In this document: positions 15,370 to 64,000 of the stretch, one piece after another
How positions within the stretch are numbered: position 1 is the stretch's first letter
Layout of the letters: each line of letters starts with the position of its first letter
Source: a virus
DNA: 64,000 nucleotides
Direction: 5' to 3' (one strand)
IMG/VR virus record: IMGVR_UViG_3300008113_000014
Span: 1 to 64,000 of that record
Made by a program: the position numbers and the translations under genes
The notes under the pieces: model-generated
The model's database searches: none
What the model saw: only the letters and a program-made list of their open reading frames with translations
What the model was told of the DNA's origin: nothing

Positions 15370-18300
15370 TTATTCTGCTCCTGGAATAGTAAAGTATGGG
15401 AAGTAAGGCCCAGCAAAATAAGGTGGGAAGAATGGTCCAAAAGTAGGTGGGAAGAATGGTGGGAAGAATGGTGGGAAGAATGGTCCAAAAGTAGGTGGGA
15501 AGAATGGTGGGAAGAATGGTGCAGCCACACCCGTAGCTTGATTAACAACAGCCTGTGTTCCTGAAACGGTATTTTGATTTAATCCAACTACACTGATAGT
15601 ATATTGAGCATTAGAAACTAAACCAGTCAAAGCTCCAGAAGTGGTTGTTGTGGTAAATTTTGGGTATCCCGTAATTGAGACTGCACTACTAGTCCTAAAA
15701 ATATCAACATAAAATTGTGTAGCATTTGTTGATGACCAACTTGCTGTAAAACCATTTGAAGTAACATTTGTAATAGTAATAGCTGCTGGGCCTGATAATG
15801 TACAAAAAGACGTTGAAGAAGATACAGTATCACTAGCACTTGATATTACAGAAAGAGATGGTGAATAAATTGTATTTGCAGTCAAACCAGTTATTGATCT
15901 AGTAACCGCACTTGTTCCTGTATAAGGTGTAGATGGTGCTCCTGGAATTGATATAGAATAAGTTGATTGGTTTGTAGATCCCCACGAAAGTGTAGCAGAG
16001 GTAGCAGCAACTGCAGAAGATGAAAGTGCTGTAGATATTGTTGGAATAACCATTGATATTGATGATGCAGATCCAGTTCCTGTTGAGTTCTTTGCTCTAA
16101 CAAAAAAGTTGTTACTTCCAGATAAACCAGTTACGCTATATGTTCTTACATTTCCAATATCTGTATATCCAAGATTATTAATTTGAACTTCATAAGAAGT
16201 AACTGTGCCAGCAGGTGCGTCCCATGTAAATGTTTTTGATCCACCATTACCAGCAGATTTTGCTAAATTTGGTGGGGGCCCTGGAACTGCTGCTGATGTA
16301 GTAAATGATGACCCAGTAGTTGTTGCAGTATCTCCATTAGGTCCAGTTATTGTAAGAGTTGGGTTATAGGTTGTGCTTGGTGTTAATGCATTATTAACAG
16401 CATAAGTTGTTGCTGTAGTTCCAGTAAATGGACTTCCTGTAGCTCCTGGTATTGATAAAGAAAATGTAGATTGATTACTAGTATTATTTGTCCAGTTAAA
16501 TGCTGCACTGACTGATGTTACTGGATTTGCTGCTGGGAAAGAAGAAATAACTGGTGGAGTGAACTGTCCAGTGCTTGCTGATGAGCCTGCTCCTGAACCA
16601 TTATAAGCTCTTACCTGAAAAGTGTTTGCTCCATTAACAACTGTTAAAGCAACTGAGGTTGTTAAACCAATATCAATAAATCCAAGGTTATTAAGTTGAT
16701 ATTCATAACCAGTTGGTGTTGATCCTCCAGATGGTGCAGACCAAGTAAATGTTTTTGCTAGACCATTTCCAGTTGTTCTTTGAAGATTTGTTGGGGTTCC
16801 TGGTACTGGCGCTGCTGTAGTAAATGTTTGAGATGCTGATACAGTATCTCCAGTGCTAGATGCTACAGTCATTGTTGCCGTATAAGTTGTACTTCCAACA
16901 AACGCATTATTTATTGCATAAAATGTTCCAGAATCATTTCCAGTAAATGGTGTACCAGTAGCTCCTGGTATTGATAAAGAATAGCTTGACTGATAATTAG
17001 ATGTCCAATTAAATAAAGCTGATGTTGATGTTACTGGGCTTGGTGCTGGAAAAGTAAGAGTTGGTATAGTAAATTGTCCAGTGCTTACAGACGTTCCTGG
17101 TCCTGCTGCAGATCTTGCTCTTACTAAAAATGTTAAATTTTGCCCAGCTATATTTGTAAAAGATACAGACCTTGTTAGTCCTGTGCTTACCCAGCCTGCC
17201 CCACTTAAGTTATATTCATATGATGTAGGAGTTGTTCCAGATGATGGTGCGTCCCATGTAAATGTTTTATTTGTTCCATTGCCCAAAGTTCTTTGAAGAT
17301 TGGTTGGTGGGCCTGGTACTGGAGCAAGAGTAGTGAATGCAGTTCCTGTAACAGTGTGGGTATCTCCAGTACTAGAAGTAATTGTTAGTGTGGGAGTATA
17401 TGTTGTGCTTCCAACCAAATCTGTTGGTGGGGTAGTTGTTAGAGATTCCGTTGTTCCTGTATATGGAGAAGTTGCTCCTGCGGGAGATAAAGATAGAGAC
17501 CATGTTGCTTGATCATTAGATGCCCAATCAATTTCTGCTGCAGTAGAATTTCGTGTAAGCATAAATGGCGATGTTGTAACTCTTGGCACAGTAAATGATG
17601 GAGTTAATACAGCTGAGCTTTCAGCAGTTGGACCAACAGACTTTACTGAAAAAACATTTTGTGATCCATAGACTGTTGTTATTGAAACACTAGTTAGCAA
17701 GTTATTGCTTATCCATCCTGAATCACCAAATGGACTAGTATATCTATACTCATACCGTGTAATTGTTCCACCACCTACTGGATCTACCCAGCTAAATGTC
17801 TTTGATGTGCCATTTCCTAACGTTCTTTGTAGGTTTGTAGGTGGATTTGGAGGTGTCTGTAGTGGACCCCTAACAGCAAATTGCTTAATTCCGTAATCCA
17901 CTCCTATACTATAATCTGTTCCACTATTTTTTTGTGTGTCAACAGCATAGTAGTATGTATTTTCTGGAAGAGTAGATGGTGTAACTACAGAAGATGTTAC
18001 GGTATATATTCCTGATGATAATGTTGGAGTTGAAGTGGTTACTCCAGAAGTTACCTCTGTTCCATATGTTGCTATATTTGAAGTATTGTATGTTCCAGAT
18101 GTTGCTGTATACCACTTTACAGAGCTTCTTGTTGAGTCTGGAAGGTATTCTTGTGCACCATTCCAAGATGATGTGTAGTATAGTGTTGTAGGAAGACTAG
18201 TAACTACTCCTATTATAGATGGTGTAGTTCCAGATTTAGGCTCTGGCTCATTTCTTATTACTGGAATTCTATATCCGACACCTGTTTCTGTGTTGTCGGA

Positions 18301-18777
18301 GCTATCTTCTCCATTTGCATTGCTTGATGTTACAGCAGTAACTGTTAATAATAGATACTTACCGTCAAAGTTTGCTTGATCACACACAACAGATGCGTAT
18401 GAACCAGACATAGTTCTTTCAGATACTAAAGTTGTGTATGGACCAGTATCTAAGATCCCTGAAGTAGACCCCTCAACTTTATATCTATAAGAAGATATTG
18501 TTTCTCCATTGCCAACCCAAACACCCCTTTGTGCATAAACTGTTTCACCAAATATAATTGGATAAACAAGAGGTGAATTACCTGCAGTGTCTGATGAAAA
18601 AAATGGAGCTGTTGTTGTGTATGGTCCAGACTTTGGCCAGAATTGAACCCAGCCAGAAACCTTTTTAATAAATCCCTTTTTTACCTGTGCCCAGGTACCA
18701 CTAGTACCCCCTGGTTTTTTTACATCAAATCTTTTTACTTTGGTCCACCCAGATGGCTTCTTTGCATAAAATGGCAT
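15370..18777 (-). CDS. Fibronectin-repeat tail fibre with proline-aromatic tail
   Basis: An 1135-residue fibre-like protein. The N-terminus (MPFYAKKPSGW) has repeated basic W-x-x-V-K elements. From about residue 310 four repeating modules of roughly 170-180 residues follow, each starting P-P-x-N-L-x-[RK] with F-[ST]-W, typical of fibronectin type III-like beta sandwiches alternating with a second beta domain. The last 50 residues are a low-complexity proline-aromatic tract (FFPP units, PTFGPFF) ending PYFPYFTIPGAE. The same terminal motif ends the gene at the right edge of the window. It is probably exposed on the virion and binds the host surface. Its ATG overlaps the stop of the upstream gene (TAATG). 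Confidence 0.85.
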   Translation of the reverse strand: MPFYAKKPSGWTKVKRFDVKKPGGTSGTWAQVKKGFIKKVSGWVQFWPKSGPYTTTAPFFSSDTAGNSPLVYPIIFGETVYAQRGVWVGNGETISSYRYKVEGSTSGILDTGPYTTLVSERTMSGSYASVVCDQANFDGKYLLLTVTAVTSSNANGEDSSDNTETGVGYRIPVIRNEPEPKSGTTPSIIGVVTSLPTTLYYTSSWNGAQEYLPDSTRSSVKWYTATSGTYNTSNIATYGTEVTSGVTTSTPTLSSGIYTVTSSVVTPSTLPENTYYYAVDTQKNSGTDYSIGVDYGIKQFAVRGPLQTPPNPPTNLQRTLGNGTSKTFSWVDPVGGGTITRYEYRYTSPFGDSGWISNNLLTSVSITTVYGSQNVFSVKSVGPTAESSAVLTPSFTVPRVTTSPFMLTRNSTAAEIDWASNDQATWSLSLSPAGATSPYTGTTESLTTTPPTDLVGSTTYTPTLTITSSTGDTHTVTGTAFTTLAPVPGPPTNLQRTLGNGTNKTFTWDAPSSGTTPTSYEYNLSGAGWVSTGLTRSVSFTNIAGQNLTFLVRARSAAGPGTSVSTGQFTIPTLTFPAPSPVTSTSALFNWTSNYQSSYSLSIPGATGTPFTGNDSGTFYAINNAFVGSTTYTATMTVASSTGDTVSASQTFTTAAPVPGTPTNLQRTTGNGLAKTFTWSAPSGGSTPTGYEYQLNNLGFIDIGLTTSVALTVVNGANTFQVRAYNGSGAGSSASTGQFTPPVISSFPAANPVTSVSAAFNWTNNTSNQSTFSLSIPGATGSPFTGTTATTYAVNNALTPSTTYNPTLTITGPNGDTATTTGSSFTTSAAVPGPPPNLAKSAGNGGSKTFTWDAPAGTVTSYEVQINNLGYTDIGNVRTYSVTGLSGSNNFFVRAKNSTGTGSASSISMVIPTISTALSSSAVAATSATLSWGSTNQSTYSISIPGAPSTPYTGTSAVTRSITGLTANTIYSPSLSVISSASDTVSSSTSFCTLSGPAAITITNVTSNGFTASWSSTNATQFYVDIFRTSSAVSITGYPKFTTTTTSGALTGLVSNAQYTISVVGLNQNTVSGTQAVVNQATGVAAPFFPPFFPPTFGPFFPPFFPPFFPPTFGPFFPPYFAGPYFPYFTIPGAE
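15409..15522 (-). repeat. Tandem repeats coding FFPP units
   Basis: Near-perfect direct repeats of a 12-base unit (GGTGGGAAGAAT on the plus strand) interrupted by copies of TGGTCCAAAAGTA. They encode the FFPP/PTFGPFF tract. Such repeats can change copy number by slippage. Confidence 0.8.
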
Positions 18778-44221: not shown

Positions 44222-45853
44222 CTATTGAGACGCTCTACCCTCACCCTTTGGATTACGTCCAGTTGTAGTTGCTGGTCCATCAGATTGGCTATTTGTTCGT
44301 TCTGTATTTCTTTCTCTGTTACCTGCAAGGTTAGAGTTTGAATCTGCTGCTTGTCTTGGTGACATTACAAAAGGTGTATCTCCATCTGGATGTTGAGGCA
44401 AACCAATTGCTTCACGTGCCTCGTTAGGCATCATTACTTGAGTTTTAACATAACGCTCAAGAATTTGTGATTGAGTTATTTCGTCCGTAAGTGTAAGCTC
44501 ATTAAACTTTAACTCCAGAATATCTGTCTTTTCCTTAATGATTTTGCTAATTACCTTGTTTAAATGGCCTTGGGCTGGGCGTGAAACCTGTTCCTTAAAT
44601 GTACGATCTTGTGCTATTGATGCTGCAATGGCTGCTGAATCAGTACCGCCAAGCTTTGAAATTGGTACTTGATGGGCAACAAGAATATCATCACGGTTTT
44701 GCTTGCGATACTCTTTAAAGGAACCATCCTGTATACCGTTTTCAATTGGCTCCATCTTAAACTCAACCTTGTTTTGGTCTGTATCTCCAGGAAGTGGGAT
44801 GTAAAGAGTTCTATGTGATTGTGCCTTTAATCCTGTTTGTAGGAATCGGAACATCTTGTCTTCTGCTTCGTTAGAAAGCTTTGCTCCTTTGAGAGTTACA
44901 ACATAGCGTGGAACAGCCTTGTTCTCAAAATAATCAATGTTATATTGAGATGCAAGTTGATCTCCAAGCAATGATGGAATTGCTGCAACAATATCAGGGA
45001 TACCATAATATGTATTTAAGGGTGAGTATTCCTTTATGTGAATAATTTCATTTGGTCGTGGATCTGATGTTACTGGGTTTGCATTAGTTGCACCAAAATT
45101 TCTAAAGTAAACAACTTTTTGACCAATGATCTGCATAAAGCCATCACGTAGGCGACGTATGCGAATTGTTGTTGATGGGATATGTCCTACGTAACCAATA
45201 TCTCCGTTTACTGTACGACCAACCTCAATGAAACCATTTCCAGTTGATTCAAGGTCTGTGTATACCTTTTCCATTGTTTTTGTAAATGAATCATCATCAT
45301 TAAGGCCTTCAAGCCAATCACGCATTTCAAACTTCATTCTTTCAATACGCTTGCGTGCTTTATCTATAGCACTTTGTTCTTTGCCTTCAAAGCTCAACAT
45401 GGTGCGACCTGTTACTTCAAAAGAATATCCAAGTCCAACAATGTTAGCAACCTTGGCATCAATGGCAGCATGATTAGCAAAAGAAGTATCATAAAAATTT
45501 GCAAGTTCATATAGATTAAATGGAGGAGTAATTACATCAAATAGGCCATATCCATTTCGGTATACTGTTCCAGGATTAATTGCTTTTGATGCAGCATCAA
45601 CACCCGTTGGAGTAGAATTAGCAGAATCTGCATAGGCTTCTGTATTTATATCTACGCCTGTTGATCCATATGCATACTCTGCTTTGCCAATACTTCTCGT
45701 TGTTCTACGACGAAAGTTTTGATCAAGTCCAGAAAATTCTTTTATTGTATCCCAAGACTTATTAAATGGATCTTGCTCTTTAAAAACATTTTCCCGTTCT
45801 TCTTGAGTATTTAAACTTGCAGAAATATATGTGTAATCAATATCCTCACTCAT
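44222..45853 (-). CDS. Portal protein
   Basis: A 543-residue portal of the HK97 class. Visible features are a wing region with L-Y-E-L-A-N-F-Y, a strand-rich core E-V-G-R-T-V-N-G-D-I-G-Y-V-G-H-I-P-S, I-I-H-I-K-E-Y-S-P-L-N-T-Y-Y-G-I-P-D, and the stem helices with R-D-D-I-L-V-A-H-Q-V-P. The C-terminal 60 residues are polar and flexible. It forms the dodecameric vertex for packaging. The ATG at 45853 overlaps the end of the previous gene (ATGAGTGA). Confidence 0.93.
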   Translation of the reverse strand: MSEDIDYTYISASLNTQEERENVFKEQDPFNKSWDTIKEFSGLDQNFRRRTTRSIGKAEYAYGSTGVDINTEAYADSANSTPTGVDAASKAINPGTVYRNGYGLFDVITPPFNLYELANFYDTSFANHAAIDAKVANIVGLGYSFEVTGRTMLSFEGKEQSAIDKARKRIERMKFEMRDWLEGLNDDDSFTKTMEKVYTDLESTGNGFIEVGRTVNGDIGYVGHIPSTTIRIRRLRDGFMQIIGQKVVYFRNFGATNANPVTSDPRPNEIIHIKEYSPLNTYYGIPDIVAAIPSLLGDQLASQYNIDYFENKAVPRYVVTLKGAKLSNEAEDKMFRFLQTGLKAQSHRTLYIPLPGDTDQNKVEFKMEPIENGIQDGSFKEYRKQNRDDILVAHQVPISKLGGTDSAAIAASIAQDRTFKEQVSRPAQGHLNKVISKIIKEKTDILELKFNELTLTDEITQSQILERYVKTQVMMPNEAREAIGLPQHPDGDTPFVMSPRQAADSNSNLAGNRERNTERTNSQSDGPATTTGRNPKGEGRASQ

Positions 45854-46253
45854 CAAAGGCCTCTCTTCCAGCAACGTTTAATGTATCCTGTGCTGCTTTC
45901 CATGCCCCAAGGTCATTCATTGAAGGAATCAACCCACTAGACATTCTGTCAAGCTGCTCTGAATGTTGTTCATCAGAAATACGTGTTAGTCCAGGAACAA
46001 AGATCGCTTCACCGTCTCCTGGATCACCATAATGTTTTGCTGCACTTTTAAGTTCCGCAATTTTAGTAAAGTCATTACGCATTGATTCAATGTTTAATAC
46101 ATTGCCACTACCGTCAGTAAACCACTTTCCAGTAGACTTTTTATATACATAAAGTCCCCAATCGTAATTCTTTTCAATGACCTTTTTACGGACATTTCCT
46201 ACAATAGGCAAACCAGTCTTTTGATTAATTAGTGGATTATTTACATTACTCAT
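45846..46253 (-). CDS. Conserved hypothetical before portal (135 aa)
   Basis: A 135-residue protein that begins MSNVNNPLINQ when the ATG at 46253 is used. It has a middle W-G-L-Y-V-Y-K and a C-terminal helical part. The position directly before the portal gene fits a small head protein. The transcript start predicted from the -10 element falls on the ATG, suggesting a leaderless mRNA. Family not recognised. Confidence 0.6.
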   Translation of the reverse strand: MSNVNNPLINQKTGLPIVGNVRKKVIEKNYDWGLYVYKKSTGKWFTDGSGNVLNIESMRNDFTKIAELKSAAKHYGDPGDGEAIFVPGLTRISDEQHSEQLDRMSSGLIPSMNDLGAWKAAQDTLNVAGREAFDE

Positions 46254-46260
46254 AACCATA

Positions 46261-46266
46261 AGTATA
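46261..46266 (-). promoter_or_regulatory. Extended -10 promoter, leaderless head transcript
   Basis: Minus-strand TGGTATACT. The predicted +1 is within one base of the ATG at 46253. This probably starts the head gene operon downstream of the reductase. Confidence 0.6.
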
Positions 46267-46300
46267 CCATAACACTGTTAAAGTGAACAGGCCCTTACCA

Positions 46301-48334
46301 TTAATAGAGTTTAATCTCACAAGCATCTGTTGAGCAATACTGCTCTCCTTCAGCCTCAAGATTTTCTATTCCATCATAAATAGCAGACCAGTCAATCTTA
46401 CCAATTGTGCCTACATATGCGTTGTATTCTTCTCTTGAGATTTCGCTATATGGTTGCTGTGGATAAACCTTATCTCCCATTGGCAAGAAGGATACAGCCT
46501 TTAACTGGCCTTCGTACATATTTAATGCTGGAGCAACAAACTTCTTTTCAGTCTCTTTGTTAAATGAAAGTGTTACAGAAACACCATTATCTGACCAATA
46601 CTTCTGGGCTGTTGCTGCTAGACCAATCTTCTCAAATAGGCTAACATGTTTTTCAGAACGCTTGTGTCCTGAAGCAACTGGGAAATATACTACTGAGGTA
46701 TTTGCTGATACTAAGTCTGGTTCAATCTTATACCCTGCAGCTTTAAAAAGATGAAGCATTGGATCAGTATTTCCAAAACGTATAGCACGAAGATAAAACT
46801 CTCCTCCAGGTCCCCAGTGAACTCCAGGAGTTGCACCAGAAAGTAGTGACACTGATCCTGATGGCTTGACCGTTGTTACACGAACTGATTCACGAACACA
46901 TAGCCACTCTGAATATTGATGATCATAATGACGAATCTTTTTGTATCCTTCATCCATCCATTCACGAGTTGTTGGAAGTCCATATGTGTCTGCAAATGAT
47001 GCAATACCTGTCAATGAGGTTCCAATGCGACGATTACGTTGCATAATACCGTTTGTTTGTGGCCAGTGTGTTGGAAGAAGCGTTACAGTCTTTCCATAAA
47101 GGTACGCAAATTTCAACGTCTTGAGGAAGTCCTCCTTGGATTCATGACGATTTAAGTGCACTTCTACAAGTGTACAAAGTTCGTATGATTCCAATGGCTG
47201 CTCCGCACAAGGGTTGAAGCCCATAATGCGACTGTCCTTATAATCAGGAGCATCCGCAAGACGGCCATAATCACGGGCAACATCAAGCCAGATAAAACCT
47301 GGCTCTCCATTGTCTGCAATTAAATCTACATAGTCTTCATATTTTGTTCCAACTGTTGCTGAAATAGAGTTGTTTGACATCCATGCCCAACCTGGCTTTT
47401 CTGGATCATATGAGTTACGTTCTGGAAATACTTCTGGATTCTTAAGATTAATAAATCCATTATCTTCTGCAGTACCAAGTGCAAGAGTAGCAGAACGACG
47501 AACATTTCCTGATACCACACAGGTACCAATAAGATTAATAATATCAACAATAGCACGGCTATCTAAGAACTCTCCTGCTCTAGAGCCAATTACATTGCGA
47601 ATACGTGTATGGAGATCAATGAGTGGTGCTGGACCGCTTGCAACGCCTCCAAAGCCCTTAATAGGGGCACCTAGTGGACGGATAAGGTCATAGTTAAAAA
47701 GCTGAATTGATTGATTTTGGCGTAAAAATGAGTTAATCAAGATACGAACTGATTCAACCCAGCCTTCACGAGTATCAGGAATATCATATGTTGATTCTGG
47801 CTCTGTTGGTGCGTAGATTGCCATTTTCTTATCTTGGCCAAGAGTATCAAAGCCAACTCCAATACCTAGCATTAATGCATCCATTACCCAAGCAAATAAT
47901 GCACCAGGATCATTGCGGTCAAGGTCTCTAGTTGAAACCATTGCACAATTTTGGAGGGATGAAGAGTTGCGCTTTTCCATAGTCATTGGTGTACCAAATG
48001 CCCAAAGACCACGACCTGGAGGAGTCCACTTTAATTCAAACATTCTTTGAAAGGCTTCCTGTGCAGACTTCTGTGCTTTATTATCATTCCATGGTAGACG
48101 ATTATCTTTAGCATGATTCTTTTGAACTGAATACATACCCTCAATTACACGGCGACAAACCTCATGCCAGCGTTCTTTTGTTCCATCTTCTTTAACACGA
48201 GAATATGTACGAATAAATGTTATCTCTCCCAATGAATTGGACCCTGCATCTGAAAATCCAAATGGAGCTGGAGTAAACTGATATTTATTTACAAACTCTT
48301 CTGATAAACGAAACGAAAATACACTTTCTGACAT
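46301..48334 (-). CDS. nrdJ: Class II (B12-dependent) ribonucleotide reductase
   Basis: A 677-residue monomeric ribonucleoside-triphosphate reductase of the Lactobacillus leichmannii type. Signature sites include the first active-site Cys in S-L-Q-N-C-A-M-V, the N-P-C-A-E-Q-P-L-E-S-Y loop carrying the radical Cys and Glu, and a C-terminal C-S-T-D-A-C pair that passes electrons. It makes dNTPs from NTPs using adenosylcobalamin and needs no oxygen or partner subunit. The gene is alone in its unit, with a terminator before and a promoter at 48396, amid the virion genes. No cobalamin riboswitch was seen upstream. Confidence 0.94.
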   Translation of the reverse strand: MSESVFSFRLSEEFVNKYQFTPAPFGFSDAGSNSLGEITFIRTYSRVKEDGTKERWHEVCRRVIEGMYSVQKNHAKDNRLPWNDNKAQKSAQEAFQRMFELKWTPPGRGLWAFGTPMTMEKRNSSSLQNCAMVSTRDLDRNDPGALFAWVMDALMLGIGVGFDTLGQDKKMAIYAPTEPESTYDIPDTREGWVESVRILINSFLRQNQSIQLFNYDLIRPLGAPIKGFGGVASGPAPLIDLHTRIRNVIGSRAGEFLDSRAIVDIINLIGTCVVSGNVRRSATLALGTAEDNGFINLKNPEVFPERNSYDPEKPGWAWMSNNSISATVGTKYEDYVDLIADNGEPGFIWLDVARDYGRLADAPDYKDSRIMGFNPCAEQPLESYELCTLVEVHLNRHESKEDFLKTLKFAYLYGKTVTLLPTHWPQTNGIMQRNRRIGTSLTGIASFADTYGLPTTREWMDEGYKKIRHYDHQYSEWLCVRESVRVTTVKPSGSVSLLSGATPGVHWGPGGEFYLRAIRFGNTDPMLHLFKAAGYKIEPDLVSANTSVVYFPVASGHKRSEKHVSLFEKIGLAATAQKYWSDNGVSVTLSFNKETEKKFVAPALNMYEGQLKAVSFLPMGDKVYPQQPYSEISREEYNAYVGTIGKIDWSAIYDGIENLEAEGEQYCSTDACEIKLY

Positions 48335-48395
48335 TTTTATATACCTTTCAAAGTAAAATTAACGGAGTGCTTTATGTTCTCTAAAGCAGTACTTA

Positions 48396-48401
48396 AGTAT
48401 A
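48396..48401 (-). promoter_or_regulatory. Extended -10 promoter for the reductase
   Basis: Minus-strand TGTTATACT, directly downstream of the intrinsic terminator that ends the tail fibre unit. The leader is about 55 bases and ends with AAAGG before the ATG. Confidence 0.6.
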
Positions 48402-48410
48402 ACACACTTT

Positions 48411-48441
48411 AAAAAGAAAAACACGCTCATAAAGAGCGTGT
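48411..48441 (-). terminator. Intrinsic terminator after the tail fibre
   Basis: Perfect 8-base stem (ACACGCTC / GAGCGTGT) closing a 5-base loop and followed on the minus strand by TTTTTCTTTTT. It separates the tail-fibre unit from the reductase. Confidence 0.9.
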
Positions 48442-48483
48442 AAATCTTTAGTATAGAGTTAGTACTCTATTATTTAATAAGTA

Positions 48484-55191: not shown

Positions 55192-55764
55192 ATGAGAAGA
55201 GATAAGAAGGTTTGGATTGGAATCCTTGCACTACTTGGGTTGGTTGCTCCTTTGAGTAATTCAGCCAATGCTTTAAATACCGAAAATAATCTAAGTAAAA
55301 CAGAAGTTCTTGCTATGCCAACCGCCAAAGCGGTTTTTTTGCTTTCTAAGCCTAAAAGTCTGGTAGCAGTAAAAAAAGACTTAAACGTTCTGCACAAGTA
55401 TCAAGATGCCATTAGTCTGACAGATCGTCAACTAAAGGAACTTCTTCATGCCGTTGGTTTCCGTGGAGAGGGCCTTGTAAAAGCTTGGGCGGTAGCTAAG
55501 AAAGAATCTAATGGTCGTCCAATGGCTTTTAATGGTAATGAAAAGACTGGGGACAATTCTTATGGTATATTCCAGATAAATATGATTGGAATGCTAAAGG
55601 ATGGTCGCAAAGAAAAGTTTGGCATTAACTTTAACAGTGAATTGTTAAACCCTGTTATTAATGCACAGGTTGCCTATCATATGAGTAATGGTGGTAAAGA
55701 TTGGTCTGCTTGGCATGGAATAACGCCAAAGACTAAGGTTTGGATGAAGAAGTTTCCTATTTAA
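55192..55764 (+). CDS. Secreted lysozyme-like transglycosylase
   Basis: A 190-residue protein with a Sec signal peptide (basic start MRRDKK, hydrophobic core, cleavage likely after A27 in SANA). The C-terminal domain is a lysozyme/SLT-fold: catalytic Glu105 in AVAKKESNGRP, then N-G-N..G-D-N-S-Y-G-I-F-Q-I-N and a final W-S-A-W-H-G. It cleaves peptidoglycan, so it could be a signal-exported endolysin or a virion exolysin. It is the only plus-strand gene, has AGGAGG and its own promoter. Its stop overlaps that of the convergent oxygenase gene by three bases. No holin was identified. Confidence 0.88.
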   Translation: MRRDKKVWIGILALLGLVAPLSNSANALNTENNLSKTEVLAMPTAKAVFLLSKPKSLVAVKKDLNVLHKYQDAISLTDRQLKELLHAVGFRGEGLVKAWAVAKKESNGRPMAFNGNEKTGDNSYGIFQINMIGMLKDGRKEKFGINFNSELLNPVINAQVAYHMSNGGKDWSAWHGITPKTKVWMKKFPI

Positions 55765-56336
55765 AAAGGAAGATCTTTATTTAACGTTACTGGGTATTCG
55801 TCATTACCCCTCATAAAGATAGTTGAAAAATATCTTGTAGTATCATTTAGGACTGGTAATGAGCCATGCAGTATTTCTCCTCCGTGAATAAGGGCAGATC
55901 CTGCTTTTGGTTTAATTGTTATTCCTAATTCTGGATAGTCAATCTCTCCACCAAGATAGTCATTATTATAGTAAATTACGATGCCGTATCCAAGATAATA
56001 CCCTTGTGGGGTTGTGTCATTATCACGATGCTGACCAATTGCTTCTTCCTCTTTAAATCTAGATATTTTTATTTCTTTTTCACAGTAATAATATGATGGG
56101 AATATGTAATCAACTTTATCAAAAATAGCAGTCTTGCAAAATTCATTATTTTCACCAAGGAATAAGCTTTTGCCATACCAAAAATCATTCTCATCACCAA
56201 TATAGTTTTTGTCATGCCATTGATCTTCAGTTGCTTGATTAATAATAGCCAAAATTGACTCTAGCTCTAAAGAATCTAAAAAGTTTTCAATTTCATAAAC
56301 ATCTTCAGCAAGTTTGTTAATTTTAAAATTATACAT
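55761..56336 (-). CDS. 2OG-Fe(II) dioxygenase, last in cassette
   Basis: A 191-residue P4H-type enzyme. The Fe ligands H-x-D are in G-Q-H-R-D-N-D and the distal His in I-L-H-G-S; the 2-oxoglutarate-binding residue is the Arg of T-T-R-Y-F. The strand motif Y-Y-N-N-D-Y-L-G-G-E-I lies between. It starts at the ATG 56336 five bases after the dehydrogenase stop; a longer TTG start is less likely. Substrate unknown. Confidence 0.88.
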   Translation of the reverse strand: MYNFKINKLAEDVYEIENFLDSLELESILAIINQATEDQWHDKNYIGDENDFWYGKSLFLGENNEFCKTAIFDKVDYIFPSYYYCEKEIKISRFKEEEAIGQHRDNDTTPQGYYLGYGIVIYYNNDYLGGEIDYPELGITIKPKAGSALIHGGEILHGSLPVLNDTTRYFSTIFMRGNDEYPVTLNKDLPF

Positions 56337-56340
56337 AGGG

Positions 56341-57009
56341 CTAACCAAATTTACTACTATTAATATGATTTAGCTCAATATGATTAATGTTAACATGGCT
56401 TGGTAGATCAGATACCCAGCGAATGCACTCTGCCATATCCTCAGCGGTAATAGCACTATCACGTCTTTCTTCTTGTGTATCAATTGTGCCTGGACAAATT
56501 TCAGTTATTTTAATACCATATTGAGGAAATTCTAGCCTCATTGTATCTACCAATGCCATCTGACCTCTTTTAGCATTAATGTAATTGCCTCCAGAACGGT
56601 ACGGAACCTTACCACCCAATGAGCTAACAAAAATAATGGTTGGGTTAGTGGACTTTTCCATTGCTGGTACAAATAACTGAGAAATATACATTGGCCCTGT
56701 TACATTAATATCATATGCAATTCTAAAGTTTGCTGGTGTTTCATTAATAATCATTGTTGGACTAGATCCACCACCTGCATTATTAACTAGCAAGTCTAAA
56801 GTGATGTCTTTATATTTTTCAGCAAATAGTTTTATTTGGTCAGAGTCTGTAACATCTATCTGATAAATTTCAACATTGTCTGAAACAAGGTCTAACATTT
56901 TAGAGATATTTCTTGATGCTGCGATTACCTTGTATCCACTTTTTTCAAGAAGCTTTACGGTTGCTCTTCCAACACCCTTGCTTGCTCCAGTAACTATTGC
57001 TGTTTTCAA
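56341..57009 (-). CDS. Short-chain dehydrogenase/reductase
   Basis: A 222-residue NAD(P)-dependent SDR. It has the Rossmann Gly motif T-G-A-S-K-G-V-G (residues 7-14), N-N-A-G (76-79), catalytic Ser130 (V-S-S-L-G-G), and Y143-x3-K147 (N-Y-I-N-A-K). It starts at a TTG directly after the previous stop codon (ATGTAATTG), consistent with the usual M-K-T-A-I-V-T-G start. It sits among the oxygenases, so it may reduce or oxidise a product made by them. Confidence 0.92.
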   Translation of the reverse strand: MKTAIVTGASKGVGRATVKLLEKSGYKVIAASRNISKMLDLVSDNVEIYQIDVTDSDQIKLFAEKYKDITLDLLVNNAGGGSSPTMIINETPANFRIAYDINVTGPMYISQLFVPAMEKSTNPTIIFVSSLGGKVPYRSGGNYINAKRGQMALVDTMRLEFPQYGIKITEICPGTIDTQEERRDSAITAEDMAECIRWVSDLPSHVNINHIELNHINSSKFG

Positions 57010-57741
57010 TTACATGCTCTGACTAGAATTAAGGCTCATGTGGTTATGAATCCAGTGACCAGGAACCATAAACTTATACCCAGACTTAACTACGTGTGCT
57101 GTGTGAAAGTATGGAGCGTATGCTGGAAATATAACAACGCTATTTGCTTTAGGTTTTAAACCAAAATCAATAGATTTATCAGCAACTGCAACATCATAGT
57201 CTAAGTCTACTGCTGGAGCACCTCTTACCCATCCATCAGAACTTGTCCATCCTCCATCATAATCTTTTAGCTGGAAAGAGATTTCTCCACCCTCACAGTC
57301 ATCATTGAGGTACATGACTAAAGAATATCTTAGGGTTTGGTCTCCATCTAATTGATCAAAGTGTGCCCCCATGCCCATTCCAGTATTATATTTTTTTATA
57401 TTAAAGGTTGGAAAAAGCCTTGGCTCATCAAAATCCCCCAAAGAAGATGCGTAGTCTTTGCAAACATTGTACATCGTAGTCATAATAGCGTCATATATAT
57501 ATTTACTTTTTTCTGCTACTTCTCCACTAAGGTTGTTTATTGCGTTTACGTCAAATGTTTTTGTTTCTCCATAAATAAAAGTTTTGTCGTTAGAAGATGT
57601 CCAAGGGTTCCAAACATTTACACCTAACTCACTGTATTGCTCAAGAGTATCTAGATCTTTCCAAACCTTTTTAAAGGTATCAAAATCTTCTATTGCATCA
57701 GTATAGTAATAAGTTTTTGGATCTAGTTTTTCTACGTTCAC
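57010..57741 (-). CDS. 2OG-Fe(II) dioxygenase (243 aa)
   Basis: A 243-residue P4H-like enzyme. H-F-D in A-H-F-D-Q-L, distal His in F-H-T-A-H, and the 2OG residue Lys in S-G-Y-K-F-M. The strand M-Y-L-N-D-D-C-E-G-G-E-I is present. It uses GTG with AAGGAG upstream. The C-terminal part differs from the others, with W-I-H-N-H at the end. Confidence 0.88.
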   Translation of the reverse strand: MNVEKLDPKTYYYTDAIEDFDTFKKVWKDLDTLEQYSELGVNVWNPWTSSNDKTFIYGETKTFDVNAINNLSGEVAEKSKYIYDAIMTTMYNVCKDYASSLGDFDEPRLFPTFNIKKYNTGMGMGAHFDQLDGDQTLRYSLVMYLNDDCEGGEISFQLKDYDGGWTSSDGWVRGAPAVDLDYDVAVADKSIDFGLKPKANSVVIFPAYAPYFHTAHVVKSGYKFMVPGHWIHNHMSLNSSQSM

Positions 57742-57750
57742 CTGTTCTCC

Positions 57751-58410
57751 TTAGTATTTGTTGTTTTCATAGTGGTTTTTTTCTTTAATAAATCCTACTA
57801 TAACATATCTTATTGGTCCTTCTCCAACATGCTTTACTCCATGCTCGTGCTTATTGTCCCCTGGAAAAAACAACAAGTCTTTTGGCTTTGGTCTTAATGA
57901 TATTCCAAGATTTGGAAAGAACAGCTCTCCTTCTACATAGTCATCATTTATATATATAATTGTTGCATATTTTATTGATGGGTCTGTATGCTGATCTGTA
58001 TGAGATTTTAGTTCAACTCCTTTTTGCATTCTTTGAATTGTTGCTAATCCACTTAACATTAATAAAGGATCTGAATCATCAACCATTGTTGATAATCTTT
58101 TATAAAAAACTTGCTGCTCTTTATGATGCTTTATGTTTAAATTTTTATCTGCCCAGTTTTGTGTGATTTCAAATTTTCCTTCAGCAACAAGGTTGTCTAC
58201 ATCATCTCTTCCAAACTTTTCCATACAAAATCTAGCAAGATTTGTTGTATATTCTATTTCCCAGTCTGCTTGTGATGCATTATCTATGCATTTTAAAACA
58301 AAGTCTAGATCTTCATTTGTAAAAAAATCTTTAATCCAAAGAATTTCATCTGTAACTTCTTCAAATACAAAATTATTTTCTTTAAGTTTTTCTTTAAACT
58401 TTTCAAGCAT
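57751..58410 (-). CDS. 2OG-Fe(II) dioxygenase (219 aa)
   Basis: Start at the ATG 58410 (M-L-E-K-F-K-E-K), preceded by GAGGTG, overlapping the previous gene. Fe ligands H-x-D in S-H-T-D-Q-H and the His of H-E-H-G-V; 2OG Arg in I-R-Y-V. The strand I-Y-I-N-D-D-Y-V-E-G-E-L is a variant of the common motif. Same family as its neighbours. Confidence 0.88.
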   Translation of the reverse strand: MLEKFKEKLKENNFVFEEVTDEILWIKDFFTNEDLDFVLKCIDNASQADWEIEYTTNLARFCMEKFGRDDVDNLVAEGKFEITQNWADKNLNIKHHKEQQVFYKRLSTMVDDSDPLLMLSGLATIQRMQKGVELKSHTDQHTDPSIKYATIIYINDDYVEGELFFPNLGISLRPKPKDLLFFPGDNKHEHGVKHVGEGPIRYVIVGFIKEKNHYENNKY

Positions 58411-59158
58411 TTGGCACCTCATTAGAGTTATACTTATTTCCGTCCTTGTCTAGCTTCCAGCCTTGCTTAAGCAATTCTTGCCATTCTGCTCTTTCAATTT
58501 CTTGTTTTGCTCTAGTTTCTTTCATTTCTGCAGCCCAGGCATCTCTTAATTCTTGTGGGTATGCATCTTCTTCTCTGTCGTCCCAAAAAGAACCAATTGT
58601 ATATCTAACTCCCTTAGTAATAAGGCTTACCTCGTGCATGTTATTAAATCCACCATCAAAAGCAGCAAGCATTCCAACTTTAGGTTGTAGACTTATCTCT
58701 TGATCTGGGAACTGTAACATTCCACCATCAAAGTCATCGTTCAAATATAAGAATGCTGCATATCTACTTCTTGTAAATGCACCAGAGTGTCCGTGTTCGT
58801 CTGTGTTGTCAGAGTGTTTTCTTGCATACGCTCCTGGCTCCCACTTTTGTGTGTGATAACCAATTTGAGAAATTATTTTTGGATCAAGGTCGTGAACGCT
58901 TGCAACTGCATCAATAATTCCTTGTTTTATTTGTGAAAATATGTCACTTGGCAATCCTTCATTCTTTACATGCTCGTCGTCATCTTGTGGTAAAACAGAA
59001 GAGTATGATTCATAAAAAGATATAGGCATCCAGGTAATCAATTCAAGTTCTGCATGCTTGTCTAAAACTTTTACAAGTTTAGCAGCAGTTTCTGAATCAA
59101 TAAAGTTTTCATAAACAACAATGTCTTTTGTTATTCTAGTTTTATTGGTTAAGTTCAT
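58403..59158 (-). CDS. 2OG-Fe(II) dioxygenase (251 aa)
   Basis: A 251-residue enzyme with H-S-D (A-R-K-H-S-D-N-T), distal His in N-M-H-E-V, 2OG Arg in G-V-R-Y-T-I, and the strand F-L-Y-L-N-D-D-F-D-G-G-M-L. The C-terminal 50 residues are a charged helix not seen in the others. It overlaps both neighbours by a few bases (ATGA). Confidence 0.9.
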   Translation of the reverse strand: MNLTNKTRITKDIVVYENFIDSETAAKLVKVLDKHAELELITWMPISFYESYSSVLPQDDDEHVKNEGLPSDIFSQIKQGIIDAVASVHDLDPKIISQIGYHTQKWEPGAYARKHSDNTDEHGHSGAFTRSRYAAFLYLNDDFDGGMLQFPDQEISLQPKVGMLAAFDGGFNNMHEVSLITKGVRYTIGSFWDDREEDAYPQELRDAWAAEMKETRAKQEIERAEWQELLKQGWKLDKDGNKYNSNEVPNA

Positions 59159-60027
59159 TTTATTCTCACAGCTCCCTCTATCTCATTTCTTTGTGGGTTG
59201 TCTATTCTAAACTGCTCGTTCAGCTTTGGTTGCATGCTAGACCAAACATCTTTTCCAAATTCTTTTTCTTTCTCATACCATTCATCTGTTCCTTTTTGAT
59301 ATTTTTGCCAATACATTCTTGCTAAAAATTTGTTTTTGTTATAAGACGGCATAACCCCATGTAAGTATGGTTTGTCATCCTCTGTTAAGTAATCTGGGTG
59401 TCCTGATGGAAAAACTAAAAGATCTCCAGCTTCTGGCTTGTACTTAACAAGTTTGTCTCCCATAGCAAAGTCAATTTCTCCACCTTCATAGTCATCATTA
59501 AAATAAATTGTACATGTTATTATAAACTTATATCCTGGAGCAGATCCTTGCTCTCTCATATAGTCTGAATGATATCTCATTCCATGTTGTTCTTCTTCGT
59601 TGCTGATATGATACTTTCCTATTGTTCCACCTGTCCATCTCCAGGTTGGAATAAGATCGCCTGATTCGTCTATGGACAATGACTCTAAATCTACATCAAT
59701 GTTATATTTTTTAATATAGTCTTCTGTAACTAAATGAAAGTTTTTCATCATTTCTATACCAAATTGTTTTTGGTTTTCTTCAATTTCTGTTTTTGTTTCA
59801 ATGCTTTCTAAACCTCCATCTTTATAATCCATAGAAAAAGAAGGTGTCATTGGATTTAAATATTCTCCAAAAATAGACCACTTTGTCCAAGGATTAAAAA
59901 GTCTATCTTCTGACTCTATTAAAGAATCTGTTAAAACCTTATAAGATTTTGAAATATCTTTAAACATGTTTTTATAAACAAGAATATGTGGATATATCTC
60001 TACAGATTCAAGAGCTGGAGTAGTCAT
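59155..60027 (-). CDS. 2OG-Fe(II) dioxygenase (290 aa)
   Basis: The largest of the set, 290 residues. H-S-D in R-Y-H-S-D-Y, distal His in Y-L-H-G-V-M, and strand I-Y-F-N-D-D-Y-E-G-G-E-I. The 2OG basic residue is probably Lys or Arg in K-F-L-A-R-M. It has a long N-terminal helical part including an acidic stretch and a C-terminal tail. Start overlaps the previous stop (TAAATG). Confidence 0.88.
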   Translation of the reverse strand: MTTPALESVEIYPHILVYKNMFKDISKSYKVLTDSLIESEDRLFNPWTKWSIFGEYLNPMTPSFSMDYKDGGLESIETKTEIEENQKQFGIEMMKNFHLVTEDYIKKYNIDVDLESLSIDESGDLIPTWRWTGGTIGKYHISNEEEQHGMRYHSDYMREQGSAPGYKFIITCTIYFNDDYEGGEIDFAMGDKLVKYKPEAGDLLVFPSGHPDYLTEDDKPYLHGVMPSYNKNKFLARMYWQKYQKGTDEWYEKEKEFGKDVWSSMQPKLNEQFRIDNPQRNEIEGAVRIK

Positions 60028-60702
60028 TTATGGTTTCCTGTCTCCAGTGTGCTCTGTAATTTCCCAGAAAAATGGGCATGTAAATCTTAATCCACTCTTT
60101 ATCTCAGTCACTCCGTGAATATAGTTTTTGTCTCCTGGGAAGAAGTAAGCTGCACCTTTTTTTGGTTTAAACTGTACACCTTGTAGTGGGAAATACAGTT
60201 CTCCTCCCTCATAGTCTTCATTTAAATAGAACAAACTAGATAAATCATAATTAGGAAAATCGTTTGGAAGTCCAGCGTCTGGGCCATCGTGAAGTTCTTT
60301 GTCTGCGTGAGGTTTTTGAAATTGTCCTGGAAGCCACTTTACTATAGTGGTACCTGTAGGGATAACCTTTACTTTGTAAAACTCTTCTACTATTGGTTGT
60401 AGTCTTTGAAATAGTCCAGCAATGACTGGGGAAATGTTTGGATCGTTTTTATCTAGGCTTGGTTGAGTTGCTACTCTATCTTTCCAATAATCAGAATCAT
60501 AAACAACCGTTCCATTTTCATTAACATGACTTTGTGTTACATCCCAAATTGTCAAAGATTTTGCAGATTTTTCTAAAAACTCTATTTCTTCTTGAGTCAT
60601 AAAGTTTTCTAGCTCAACGATCATGTCTTTGCTATCACCAAACCAGCCAGATGGTGTGAGTGAAGCCTTTCTAACTACAACAGAAGCATCCATTTTATCC
60701 AT
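60028..60702 (-). CDS. 2OG-Fe(II) dioxygenase, leaderless (224 aa)
   Basis: A 224-residue enzyme. H-A-D in K-P-H-A-D-K, distal His in Y-I-H-G-V-T, 2OG Arg in G-L-R-F-T, and strand F-Y-L-N-E-D-Y-E-G-G-E-L. An extended -10 within the end of the preceding gene would start transcription on this ATG, so it may be made separately as well as from the main operon. Confidence 0.9.
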   Translation of the reverse strand: MDKMDASVVVRKASLTPSGWFGDSKDMIVELENFMTQEEIEFLEKSAKSLTIWDVTQSHVNENGTVVYDSDYWKDRVATQPSLDKNDPNISPVIAGLFQRLQPIVEEFYKVKVIPTGTTIVKWLPGQFQKPHADKELHDGPDAGLPNDFPNYDLSSLFYLNEDYEGGELYFPLQGVQFKPKKGAAYFFPGDKNYIHGVTEIKSGLRFTCPFFWEITEHTGDRKP

Positions 60703-60704
60703 AA

Positions 60705-61433
60705 TTAGATTATACCATTTCCCTTGTTTGATGTATTATCAGTAACAGAAAGACGTAAAACCTTAGTTTCGTGAGAACCCGTACTTTCACCTTTTTCATT
60801 TACTGCATCTCTATACCAGTCAGTCCATTGTCCAGACTTGTTGATTTCTTGTGCAGCTTCACCATACGACTGATGAGCCATCTGCCTTTTTCTATCTACA
60901 TCTGAATAATCAATTATTTGAATTGATGTATTGTCCATTGCCGTCAAAGAAATTGGAATTATTGTAGCAATTGGGGTTCCTGCTTTTATAGTAATTTCCT
61001 TGTTTGCAGATCTTGCTTTAATTGCTAATGGAAAACCAGTATCAAGCCAAGATGTAGATATTAAAGATGACATTGTTTCAAAATCATCATTAAAGTAATT
61101 AACTGGATTAATTGTAAGCATGCTAACGTTTTGCTCAGATCTAAAAGTTAGGCCAGTATGTAGGCTAACTGTAGACTGCCCTCTTCCAGTATATGTAAAG
61201 TCTGAACCTTCTAGTATAGTTACATTCTCTGAACTTGTATCATTTATACCGTTCCAAATAAACTTAATGTCTTCAGTACATGAAAGACTCCAGCCAACCA
61301 TATTCGCTTGTGTAACTGGAAAACATCTATAGGCATGCTTTTCTGGAGTTACATCCATCCAATCTCTTTTAATTGACATTGGAGAAAGTATGATTTTTGA
61401 ATCTGGAAATCTTTCAGCTGATATATTAAGCAT
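60705..61433 (-). CDS. DUF6065-family protein (242 aa)
   Basis: A 242-residue beta-rich protein fitting DUF6065: the opening R-D-W-M-D-V-T-P, then A-Y-R-C-F-P, A-N-M-V-G-W, F-I-W-N-G, and H-T-G-L-T-F-R. No H-x-D iron motif. Proteins of this family are found next to dioxygenases and cupin-like enzymes; their activity is not established. It is coupled to the upstream gene by TAATG. The C-terminus contains the promoter for the next gene. Confidence 0.82.
   Translation of the reverse strand: MLNISAERFPDSKIILSPMSIKRDWMDVTPEKHAYRCFPVTQANMVGWSLSCTEDIKFIWNGINDTSSENVTILEGSDFTYTGRGQSTVSLHTGLTFRSEQNVSMLTINPVNYFNDDFETMSSLISTSWLDTGFPLAIKARSANKEITIKAGTPIATIIPISLTAMDNTSIQIIDYSDVDRKRQMAHQSYGEAAQEINKSGQWTDWYRDAVNEKGESTGSHETKVLRLSVTDNTSNKGNGII
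60709..60714 (-). promoter_or_regulatory. Internal extended -10 promoter
   Basis: Minus-strand TGGTATAAT formed by the last codons (Asn-Gly-Ile-Ile-stop) of the DUF6065 gene. The +1 lies on the ATG at 60702. Confidence 0.6.
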
Positions 61434-62089
61434 TAGTCTTTGTCTACCATATACATTTCGTTAGTGTGAAACTTTTTGTTATAATCAAGCATTGTTACAA
61501 TAGAATACTTTGTTCCTGAAATAACTGGCATTGCACGATGAGGATACATGAAGTTTGATGGAAAAATAAATAAATCTCCTGCATCTGCCTTAATGTCTAG
61601 GTTCTGGAGTCTAAAGAAAAGTGAACCGCCTTCATAGTCATCATTTGGGTATGCAACAAGTGACACTGTGCAGTTATAAGAAAAACCATGATCATGGTGT
61701 TCTTGAAAGTGTTGTCCTGGTCCATATTTAATAAAATTAAAAGCTTCCCAATACTTTAAATCCATTATGTTGTAGTCTTTTCTGTAATCATCAACACATG
61801 GAGACTTAACATCATATAGATCTTGCCAAAGCTCTTGTAGTTTTATTGAGTCTGGTGTTTTGTTTTGTTCAATATCAGTTTTCTTATACTTAAAATCTAC
61901 ACAGTCTCTGTAGTCTGGAATTAGCTGCTGGTATCCAACATATGCTGGTTGCCAAGTAAATTGTTCTTTTGAACCTAGTGGCTTTACAACAGATTCAATT
62001 CTGTTTATCACATCAATATCTTTATTAATGACACCTTTATAGCATACAATACCATTACCATAGTTAACCTTTTCTGTCCAAGTTTGCAT
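61433..62089 (-). CDS. 2OG-Fe(II) dioxygenase (218 aa)
   Basis: A 218-residue enzyme with H-x-D in E-H-H-D-H-G, distal His in Y-P-H-R-A, and 2OG Lys in G-T-K-Y-S. The strand A-Y-P-N-D-D-Y-E-G-G-S-L replaces the common E by S. It is a close paralogue of the first enzyme in the cassette (shared E-A-F-N-F-[IV]-K-Y and the I-S-G-T-K-Y end). GGGAG precedes the ATG. Confidence 0.9.
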   Translation of the reverse strand: MQTWTEKVNYGNGIVCYKGVINKDIDVINRIESVVKPLGSKEQFTWQPAYVGYQQLIPDYRDCVDFKYKKTDIEQNKTPDSIKLQELWQDLYDVKSPCVDDYRKDYNIMDLKYWEAFNFIKYGPGQHFQEHHDHGFSYNCTVSLVAYPNDDYEGGSLFFRLQNLDIKADAGDLFIFPSNFMYPHRAMPVISGTKYSIVTMLDYNKKFHTNEMYMVDKD

Positions 62090-62097: not shown

Positions 62098-62874
62098 CTA
62101 TTTATATTCTCTTCTAGACCAAACTTTATTTTTATAAATACCGCCGTCTGGTTGGCGATAAAAATTTGCATTGGCTATCATTTTAGCATATATCTTTTCT
62201 TGATTTTGAAACTCTATCTCATGGCTCCAGTTTTCTCTTTTAAATGGTAAAATTTGGACATATGGAGTCCCTGCTGGTATTGTTCCTTCCCAGCCTTCTG
62301 CAATAAAAAATGGAAAGGTACCAAGCAGGTGAACACTGTCATTATCAACAACACCAGTTGTATTAATAAATGGAAGATCAAATCTATTCATAGGTGTCAT
62401 AAATAATGCACTATATCCTTCTGGAAGTTCAAATCCCCAATCTGGATACCAGGCAAAATGATCTTTGTAAAATCCTTTTGGGTGCTCAAACTGTGGCATA
62501 GCAAGTCTTTTTCCACAAAAATCTTGATGTCTTTTATCTTCTATCTTAACATCTATTGATCCTGTCTCAGTTTTAAAAAAAGTAAGGTCACAAGGAGTTC
62601 TTAATACATATCCTGTTGAAAACCCATCCATAATTGCTGGACAAGCTTTCCATGTAGGTATTTTTCCATAGTCATCTGTAGTTCCTTCTTTTGGAAAAGG
62701 ACAAACTTCTTTTGGTGCTTTGTAGTATTCACCAGTTGGCATTTTTGCAAATCTGTCGGCATCTTTATACCATTGTGGTATTTCAGACTGTGTTGTTTTA
62801 GGCACTGATTTACTATCCTTGTTTAACCAAGGCCTAAAAGATCTAAAGATTACTAAATTATCTTTTAGACTCAT
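62098..62874 (-). CDS. DUF6065-like protein (258 aa)
   Basis: A 258-residue protein related in layout to the product of 60705-61433, with segments such as W-K-A-C-P-A-I-M-D-G-F-S-T-G-Y, F-F-I-A-E-G-W-E-G-T-I-P-A-G-T-P-Y. Aromatic-rich throughout. The start overlaps the preceding oxygenase gene by 17 bases. Probably a beta-sandwich partner for the oxygenases; similarity to the DUF6065 family is less clear than for its paralogue. Confidence 0.7.
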   Translation of the reverse strand: MSLKDNLVIFRSFRPWLNKDSKSVPKTTQSEIPQWYKDADRFAKMPTGEYYKAPKEVCPFPKEGTTDDYGKIPTWKACPAIMDGFSTGYVLRTPCDLTFFKTETGSIDVKIEDKRHQDFCGKRLAMPQFEHPKGFYKDHFAWYPDWGFELPEGYSALFMTPMNRFDLPFINTTGVVDNDSVHLLGTFPFFIAEGWEGTIPAGTPYVQILPFKRENWSHEIEFQNQEKIYAKMIANANFYRQPDGGIYKNKVWSRREYK

Positions 62875-63586
62875 GATGATGCCCTAATAAATTAATATCT
62901 GTCATAATTACAACACAATATTTTGTTCCAGATATCATTGGAAGAGATGCATGTTCATATATATAGTTTGATGGGAAAATTGCTATGTCTCCAACTTTTG
63001 GTGTTAGTGTGTATCCATCTAATCTTGGAAATTTAATTTCTCCACCTTCGTAGTCGTCATTTATATATATAACTGCAGAAACTGTAGTATTGTATGCTGG
63101 TCCATGGTCGGCATGAATATTAAAGTGCTTACCCTGTCCCTCATACTTTACAAAATTAAAAGCTTCATAGTATATAACATTTATTCCCCAATATTTTGCA
63201 TAGTCATCTATGCATAGTTTTAATTTTTGATAAATCTCTTCGTGTAAATCAATTAGTTCACCATTAAACTCATCTCGTGGACCAAGATTTTCTTGCTTAT
63301 ATCTAAAATCTACAGCATCTCTTGCTTTTTTTATTGGTGTAGTAGCATTGGTTACTTGTGCTTCTGACCACTTATACTTTCTACCATTAGACAAATTGGA
63401 CTCAAGAATATTGATGTATCTTTTAGAGTCCTCCAAAGAAAACGTATTTCTGTATATATTTAATCCAAGTCCTGGATTTTCTATTACAATATTTTTTTCA
63501 GATATATCTCTATTAACCCTATTTGATACAGTCTCAGATCTATCTTTAGTAAACCATGGGTTTTCATTTTCATCATAAGTGTTCAT
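62858..63586 (-). CDS. 2OG-Fe(II) dioxygenase, first in cassette
   Basis: A 242-residue enzyme. H-A-D in I-H-A-D-H-G, distal His in Y-E-H-A-S, 2OG Lys in G-T-K-Y-C, and strand Y-I-N-D-D-Y-E-G-G-E-I. A long polar N-terminus precedes the catalytic part. AAAGGGG lies before the ATG, about 13 bases from the predicted transcript start of the strong cassette promoter. Confidence 0.9.
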   Translation of the reverse strand: MNTYDENENPWFTKDRSETVSNRVNRDISEKNIVIENPGLGLNIYRNTFSLEDSKRYINILESNLSNGRKYKWSEAQVTNATTPIKKARDAVDFRYKQENLGPRDEFNGELIDLHEEIYQKLKLCIDDYAKYWGINVIYYEAFNFVKYEGQGKHFNIHADHGPAYNTTVSAVIYINDDYEGGEIKFPRLDGYTLTPKVGDIAIFPSNYIYEHASLPMISGTKYCVVIMTDINLLGHHHESKR

Positions 63587-63634: not shown

Positions 63635-63694
63635 CAAAAACAACCCTTGTTGCAAGTATTTTGCAAGACATGAATGATAGCACTCATAAAACAC

Positions 63695-63739: not shown

Positions 63740-64000
63740 TTACTGTACACCTGGAAGTGTAAAGTATGGGAAGTAAGGGTTATTTGCAGGGAAGTATGGG
63801 AAGTACGGTGGGAAGAATGGGAAGTAAGGGAAGTAAGGGAAGAATGGAGGGAAGAATGGGAAGAACGGGAAGTAAGGGAAGAAAGGTGGGAAGAACGGGA
63901 AGTATGGGAAGAACGGGAAGAAAGGTGGGAAGAACGGGAAGAATGGGAAGAACGGAAAGAAAGGTGGGAAAAATGGTGGGAAGAATGGGAAGAACGGTGG
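63740..64000 (-). CDS. Proline-aromatic repeat protein, 5' end outside window
   Basis: The last 86 residues of a protein whose start lies beyond the right edge. Residues come almost only as P-F-F, P-Y-F and P-P-F-F units (about 25 units in a row), with one break (P-A-N-N-P) near the end, then P-Y-F-P-Y-F-T-L-P-G-V-Q. The reading frame is unmistakable because every third codon is Pro. The same ending P-Y-F-P-Y-F-T-[IL]-P-G terminates the fibre at 15370-18777, so this is probably the tail of a second fibre. Confidence 0.85.
   Translation of the reverse strand, partial: PPFFPFFPPFFPPFFPFFPFFPFFPPFFPFFPYFPFFPPFFPYFPFFPFFPPFFPYFPYFPFFPPYFPYFPANNPYFPYFTLPGVQ
63767..64000 (-). repeat. 9-base tandem repeats (P-[FY]-F codons)
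   Basis: Repeated GGGAAGAAC / GGGAAGTAN units on the plus strand continue to the edge of the window. The 9-base period and 12-base GGTGGGAAGAAN variants correspond to PFF and PPFF. Confidence 0.85.

Follow-up and report, generated by a model that had tools for sequence, protein, structure and literature searches.

Among the closest described counterparts of the locus analysed here are systems from two groups of viruses. The algal virus PBCV-1 encodes a prolyl 4-hydroxylase, vCPH, which has viral peptide substrates (Eriksson 1999, as cited in PMC9301287), while T-even phages exchange the distal tips of their tail fibres (Tetart 1998, as cited in PMC7468147). A survey of Baltic Sea viruses counts prolyl 4-hydroxylase as one of their abundant auxiliary genes and states that its use by viruses "remains cryptic" (PMC9301287). 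The DNA studied here, which we call the window, comprises positions 1 to 64,000 of the IMG/VR record IMGVR_UViG_3300008113_000014, which is 108,863 bp in full. By analogy, its system resembles both hydroxylase action in PBCV-1 and tip exchange in T-even phages, a likeness that assigns it to neither. The window enzyme is virus-encoded, has the same predicted fold as vCPH (5c5t), its best structural match, and as in PBCV-1 is proposed to act on a proline-rich protein that the virus itself encodes. Unlike PBCV-1, the carriers here are bacteriophages with up to 13 PF13640 copies per record, the candidate substrate gene heads the same cluster as the enzymes, and identity in the structural alignment is 17%. 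As in T-even phages, tips change while the shaft stays, repeats are conserved, and adhesin switching is the proposed benefit. In contrast to the T-even case, the joint here is a Phe/Pro repeat, Hint, Cys-rich and short-tag ends occur among the tips, a single tag can be found on two unrelated genes of one genome, and exchange is deduced from sequence comparison. The literature searched holds no description of the tails, the enzyme cassette or the common tag, and the arrangement is apparently undescribed. The linkage of tails to enzymes names a concrete candidate substrate class for viral prolyl 4-hydroxylase, and the tip-exchange architecture concerns phages that in our searches occur only in metagenomes.

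Two genes of the record share a C-terminus. The fibre gene at 15370-18777 (minus strand) translates to a protein ending in ...GVAAPFFPPFFPPTFGPFFPPFFPPFFPPTFGPFFPPYFAGPYFPYFTIPGAE, and the gene cut by the right edge of the window, complete in the record at 63740-64705 (minus strand, 321 aa; L003 2741-3706), to one ending in ...FPPYFPYFPANNPYFPYFTLPGVQ. In both, a Phe/Pro tail closes with PYFPYFT[IL]PGxx; the tail of the 321-aa protein spans about 118 residues and is closed by PYFPYFTLPGVQ. Translation of both genes thus bears out the proline-aromatic terminus that a first, sequence-only reading had noticed on them, with the correction that the termini lie about 48 kb apart and not 45 kb as it stated. 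The full record contains two matches to the PYFPYFT pattern, one at each of these termini and none elsewhere, and 9 of the last 12 residues are identical, while BLASTP finds no similarity between the two bodies. Each tail is more than 70% Phe, Tyr and Pro (proline 35–38%), a composition that lends some credit to a chance resemblance between two low-complexity sequences. Yet a 9/12 match arises in only 289 of 200,000 shuffles of the two tails (0.14%); it is therefore more than an effect of composition, and other phage genomes carry the tag in precisely this C-terminal position. On these grounds we reject chance similarity, which we consider extremely improbable. The six PYFPYF codons are the same in both genes, but this has a chance of about 6% given codon usage and the flanking codons differ, so the identical codons do not establish a recent copy. 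The tails consist of FFPP/FFP repeats with almost no Gly and do not show the Gly at every third position of collagen-like Gly-X-Y sequences, and Pfam finds no Peptidase_S74 domain in either gene. An open frame at 63674-64000 (plus strand) runs antisense to the Phe/Pro repeats and translates in the record to a Trp/Glu/Arg repeat; it is most likely spurious.

Table 1. Features of the window, with coordinates, strand and supporting evidence.
Feature	Position	Strand	Evidence or remark
1135-aa fibre-like protein: Fn3 domains, Phe/Pro tail, PYFPYFTIPGAE terminus	15370..18777	-	in tail gene module; translation; Pfam fn3 9e-12; orthologues at same place, same downstream gene
Phe/Pro tail of fibre, 48 aa	15373..15516	-	last 12 codons, 15373-15408, are the common terminal tag
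2OG-Fe(II) oxygenase, last of array	55761..56348	-	PF13640 1e-4, 23.3 bits; below Pfam cut-off of 27
Short-chain dehydrogenase/reductase inside array	56341..57009	-	PF00106 1.5e-39
2OG-Fe(II) oxygenase	57010..57741	-	PF13640 8e-9
2OG-Fe(II) oxygenase	57751..58422	-	PF13640 2e-9
2OG-Fe(II) oxygenase	58403..59158	-	PF13640 5e-9
2OG-Fe(II) oxygenase	59155..60027	-	PF13640 1e-9
2OG-Fe(II) oxygenase	60028..60702	-	PF13640 9e-9
DUF6065 protein, constant cassette member	60705..61433	-	PF19541 2e-31
2OG-Fe(II) oxygenase, modelled, predicted prolyl-hydroxylase fold	61433..62089	-	PF13640 3e-12; H131, D133, H184, K194; AlphaFold and Foldseek
258-aa protein inside oxygenase array	62098..62874	-	no Pfam match
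2OG-Fe(II) oxygenase, first gene after tail gene	62858..63586	-	PF13640 4e-11
C-terminal part of 321-aa Fn3 and Phe/Pro-tail protein, tag PYFPYFTLPGVQ at end	63740..64000	-	Pfam fn3 7e-8

Directly downstream of the 321-aa gene, eight 2OG-Fe(II) oxygenase genes, a short-chain dehydrogenase/reductase gene and a DUF6065 gene are tightly packed on the same strand. Among PDB sequences, the enzyme profile matches B. anthracis prolyl 4-hydroxylase, PKHD-type hydroxylases, LH3, prolyl 3-hydroxylase and a viral prolyl 4-hydroxylase. One of the eight paralogues (61433-62089) was modelled. Its H131, D133 and H184 are invariant and its K194 nearly so across 30 relatives, as predicted for an HxD...H triad with a basic 2OG-binding residue. 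The AlphaFold model (pLDDT 91) predicts a prolyl-hydroxylase fold, with the PBCV-1 viral prolyl hydroxylase 5c5t, P. putida P4H 4iw3, HIF PHD2 and algal P4H 3gze as best Foldseek matches, and marks the protein as a putative peptidyl-proline hydroxylase. Relatives in cultured phages are confined to distant cyanophage genes (at most 35% identity), which can adjoin fibre genes. In the cultured Synechococcus phage S-SCSM1 (L542), annotated tail-fibre genes have 2OG-Fe(II) oxygenase genes on either side; these fibre genes lack a Phe/Pro tail, unlike the present loci with their Phe/Pro-tailed genes and DUF6065. The DUF6065 gene is present in 52 of the 53 cassette loci that combine tail and 2OG genes. 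Its model has a weak dUTPase-like fold; the family has no match in any phage record and is mentioned nowhere in the literature searched. Relatives have, at the position of the 258-aa protein, a gene of similar size whose product ends much alike (..KVWTRREYK / ..KVWSRREYR in L441, L442). Immediately upstream of the 321-aa gene there is a collagen-like gene (record 64746-65456; L003 3747-4457).

The tail module is widespread in uncultivated phages. The FFPPFFPPFFP pattern occurs in at least 120 IMG/VR loci, and in 257 Gb of prokaryotic genomes it yields 17 stretches, mostly chance frames, among which only L158, L162, L169, L170 and perhaps L167 hold real-looking tails. The last of these, from Marinithermofilum abyssi, is a bacterial 108-aa frame ending in FFPPFFPPFFPIFPFFGPPFFGPFWW, a Phe/Pro tail outside phages. 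Neither the tail proteins nor the enzyme have a close match in 50,697 phage records, a search in which tail-only queries may be masked, and named phages gave no tblastn match to the tail proteins, with low-complexity filtering that may hide tails. The body that precedes the tail is mostly Fn3-like and in other proteins small and apparently PASTA-like, a label we read from the sequence; Pfam finds no domain in one such protein (L081). Repeat number varies freely and the unit itself differs (FFPP, PPGFF, PPHFPPFF), with proline and aromatics kept throughout. What follows the tail is equally diverse: PPxFK alone, Cys-rich ends, extra Fn3-like or other domains, S74, intein-like Hint domains or short tags. 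Peptidase_S74 (endosialidase-type) is an intramolecular, trimerising fibre chaperone. In L077 it directly follows ...FFPPAFK (Pfam 4e-11), in contrast to the window genes and most tail proteins, which have no S74 end. Hint-like ends, absent from both window genes, follow the tail in L436 (11088-12431), L074, L101, L116 and L143, and those of L436, L074, L116 and others match the BIL domain 2lwy (1e-9 as a profile). Some copies keep the N-terminal Cys and the C-terminal HN and others lack one or both; as several are without the final HN, not all copies need be active. A relative of the 15370 fibre (L517; G001 45000-48500) has Cys repeats, WSAWSTCVNSSQSRTRTC, before its tail, which we take to be thrombospondin-like.

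The terminal tag itself, in the form [FY]FP[FY]FT[ILV]xGxx, forms the very C-terminus at about 29 IMG/VR loci and closes several protein architectures, namely tail proteins of about 280–380 aa, the 1135-aa fibre, and proteins of 494–730 aa with APVA-, VTPA- or TPxP-rich tails. Matches away from the terminus fall in unrelated or junk frames. This recurrence supports a common terminal module well, and is stronger evidence than the shuffling test.

Ends vary independently of bodies. Tail-protein bodies that are 82–92% identical carry unrelated end classes, and the orthologues of the 15370 fibre differ too: L174 has PYFPYFTIPGAE at its end and L176-L178 have GSDPV, whereas L175 (85% identity in the aligned region) closes with an additional Fn3-like domain and L179 stops after a PPGFF repeat. 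The C-termini of relatives, with different ends on near-identical bodies and on orthologues, show that the module moves independently of the upstream fibre domains, and the tip varies while the shaft is conserved, as in adhesin tips of the T-even type. Moreover, the same tag can sit on two genes of one genome, as in the window phage, G001 (...FRGY), G022 (PFFPGFGY) and G029 (GCPPRC), and likewise in G032, L086 and L497. In seven of 20 within-genome tail-gene pairs, three or more of the final six residues agree, and none of 100,000 permutations was as good; the list of pairs was compiled manually from the loci collected, and two genomes examined later, G037 and G041, are discordant. Because the pairs in G032, L086 and L497 look related or tandem, the strongest cases are G000, G001 and G029, each with two unrelated bodies in one genome; in G022 the second gene is too short for comparison. 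The expectation that a second PYFPYFT gene would be found wherever one exists failed for G037, G040 and G041. Exchange by recombination, one of the explanations offered by the sequence-only reading, is well supported by swapped ends on near-identical bodies, by the orthologues and by tags common to two genes per genome, and we infer that recombination is the mechanism. The variation, in repeat number and whole-end swaps, does not look like that made by a diversity-generating retroelement.

Tail genes are linked to oxygenase genes in an operon-like manner. Counted with a profile built from the eight window oxygenases, over loci taken from the matches listed, 2OG genes number 3.2 per 10 kb at tail loci (91 of 120 loci) against 0.07 at random loci (5 of 120) and 0.19 at collagen-pattern loci (15 of 119), the control habitats being unmatched; the density near tail genes is about 50 times that of random phage loci. 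Orientation is strongly one-sided, with 336 of the 371 2OG genes near tails lying downstream on the same strand and 11 upstream on the same strand. Over whole records, Pfam finds PF13640 in 43 of 48 tail or tag records and in 9 of 49 controls, again from unmatched habitats, with typically at least six copies in the former and mostly none in the latter. When the search is reversed and started from the enzyme profile alone, an aromatic-proline tail gene lies within 6 kb upstream in 53 of the 55 informative loci, that is, those among the matches listed that have 1.5 kb or more ahead of the first enzyme. These 53 loci also have other genes in common and make up a single network of fairly close relatives; descent from one ancestral cassette could therefore account for part of the linkage. 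The PASTA-like loci, in which the tail occurs close to these enzyme clades but with the genes arranged differently, offer partial independent support. Two control records drawn with a random 15-mer, L435 and L436, themselves hold large arrays with an Fn3 and Phe/Pro gene upstream, in L436 with a Hint end. Several tail loci have no 2OG gene in the stretch covered, which in some is many kb, and none is present in three long partial contigs (34–42 kb) with orthologues of the 15370 fibre. Collagen as the partner linked to the array was not supported, the collagen-pattern control giving 17 times fewer 2OG genes than the tail loci. Our confidence in the Phe/Pro module, its exchange and its linkage to the enzymes is high, and the adjacent prolyl-hydroxylase-like array points to post-translational modification of the tail.

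On balance we think that the tails are exposed tips of fibres, that enzymes encoded by the phage itself hydroxylate their prolines, and that tips are exchanged at the repeats, which serve as the junction. The window genes would then encode fibre-like proteins in which an Fn3 stalk leads into a Phe/Pro repeat tail and this into a short, exchangeable tip at the C-terminus, their place in the virion being suggested by gene position and domains. The tail would be the substrate, or one of several substrates, of the phage prolyl-hydroxylase-type 2OG-Fe(II) oxygenases, and the 15370 fibre, encoded far from the array in the tail module, would be modified in trans; for proline hydroxylation of the tails our confidence is moderate. 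Hydroxylation might render the very hydrophobic repeat soluble and extended, by analogy with hydroxyproline-rich plant and algal proteins, and the tail would hold the tip at the distal fibre end for contact with the host surface. We give adhesion through tails or tips low to moderate confidence, and a role of the terminal module in trimerisation or attachment is plausible. The near-identical repeats would form a joint for tip swaps between genes and between phages, and two fibres of one genome could therefore carry the same tip. The S74 domain in L077 would imply a trimeric fibre, and the Hint ends an autoprocessing that leaves the tail as the mature C-terminus. More tentatively, and with some doubt on our part, the operon may combine a Phe/Pro fibre tip with several prolyl hydroxylases that convert it into a surface polymer rich in hydroxyproline and perhaps glycosylated or adhesive, the phage equivalent of extensins or mussel foot proteins, in which the exchangeable distal tags are common to the fibres of one virion.

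Two other accounts seem to us less probable. The oxygenases might act elsewhere, on collagen-like fibres, on host or virion glycans or on Phe/Tyr of the tail instead of its prolines, with the tail gene being just a neighbour inherited along with them in a host-interaction island. The prolyl-hydroxylase enzyme class classically acts on collagen, and the collagen-like gene just upstream of the 321-aa gene, the other genes that cassette loci have in common and the 2OG genes flanking untailed fibre genes in S-SCSM1 all speak for such a target. We nonetheless regard it as unlikely, given the 17-fold deficit of 2OG genes at collagen-pattern loci relative to tail loci, the regular position of the tail gene before the array, and a repeat whose units vary yet whose proline and aromatics stay. 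That the tail is a passive, unmodified low-complexity linker or recombination site, with the tip alone of importance as in other tip-exchanging phages, seems to us quite improbable. Such a linker would suit the exchange of tips at the tail and the free variation in repeat number, but it leaves unexplained both the one-sided, same-strand linkage to prolyl-hydroxylase-like genes and why the repeat stays proline- and aromatic-rich.

The portal and terminase of the window phage are 46% and 54% identical, respectively, to those of Streptomyces phages of the Stanwilliamsviridae, and its structural gene order resembles theirs; an actinobacterial host is therefore likely. The stretches of Karimac examined hold neither the Phe/Pro tail nor the 2OG enzymes. 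In phage isolates of Nanopelagicales, a variable island contains part of the tail-fibre gene together with collagen-like genes (PMC10202952), which fits a host-recognition island. Near the oxygenase array, the window also holds a 981-aa fibre gene (48484-51429, minus strand) that matches many phage tail-fibre families.
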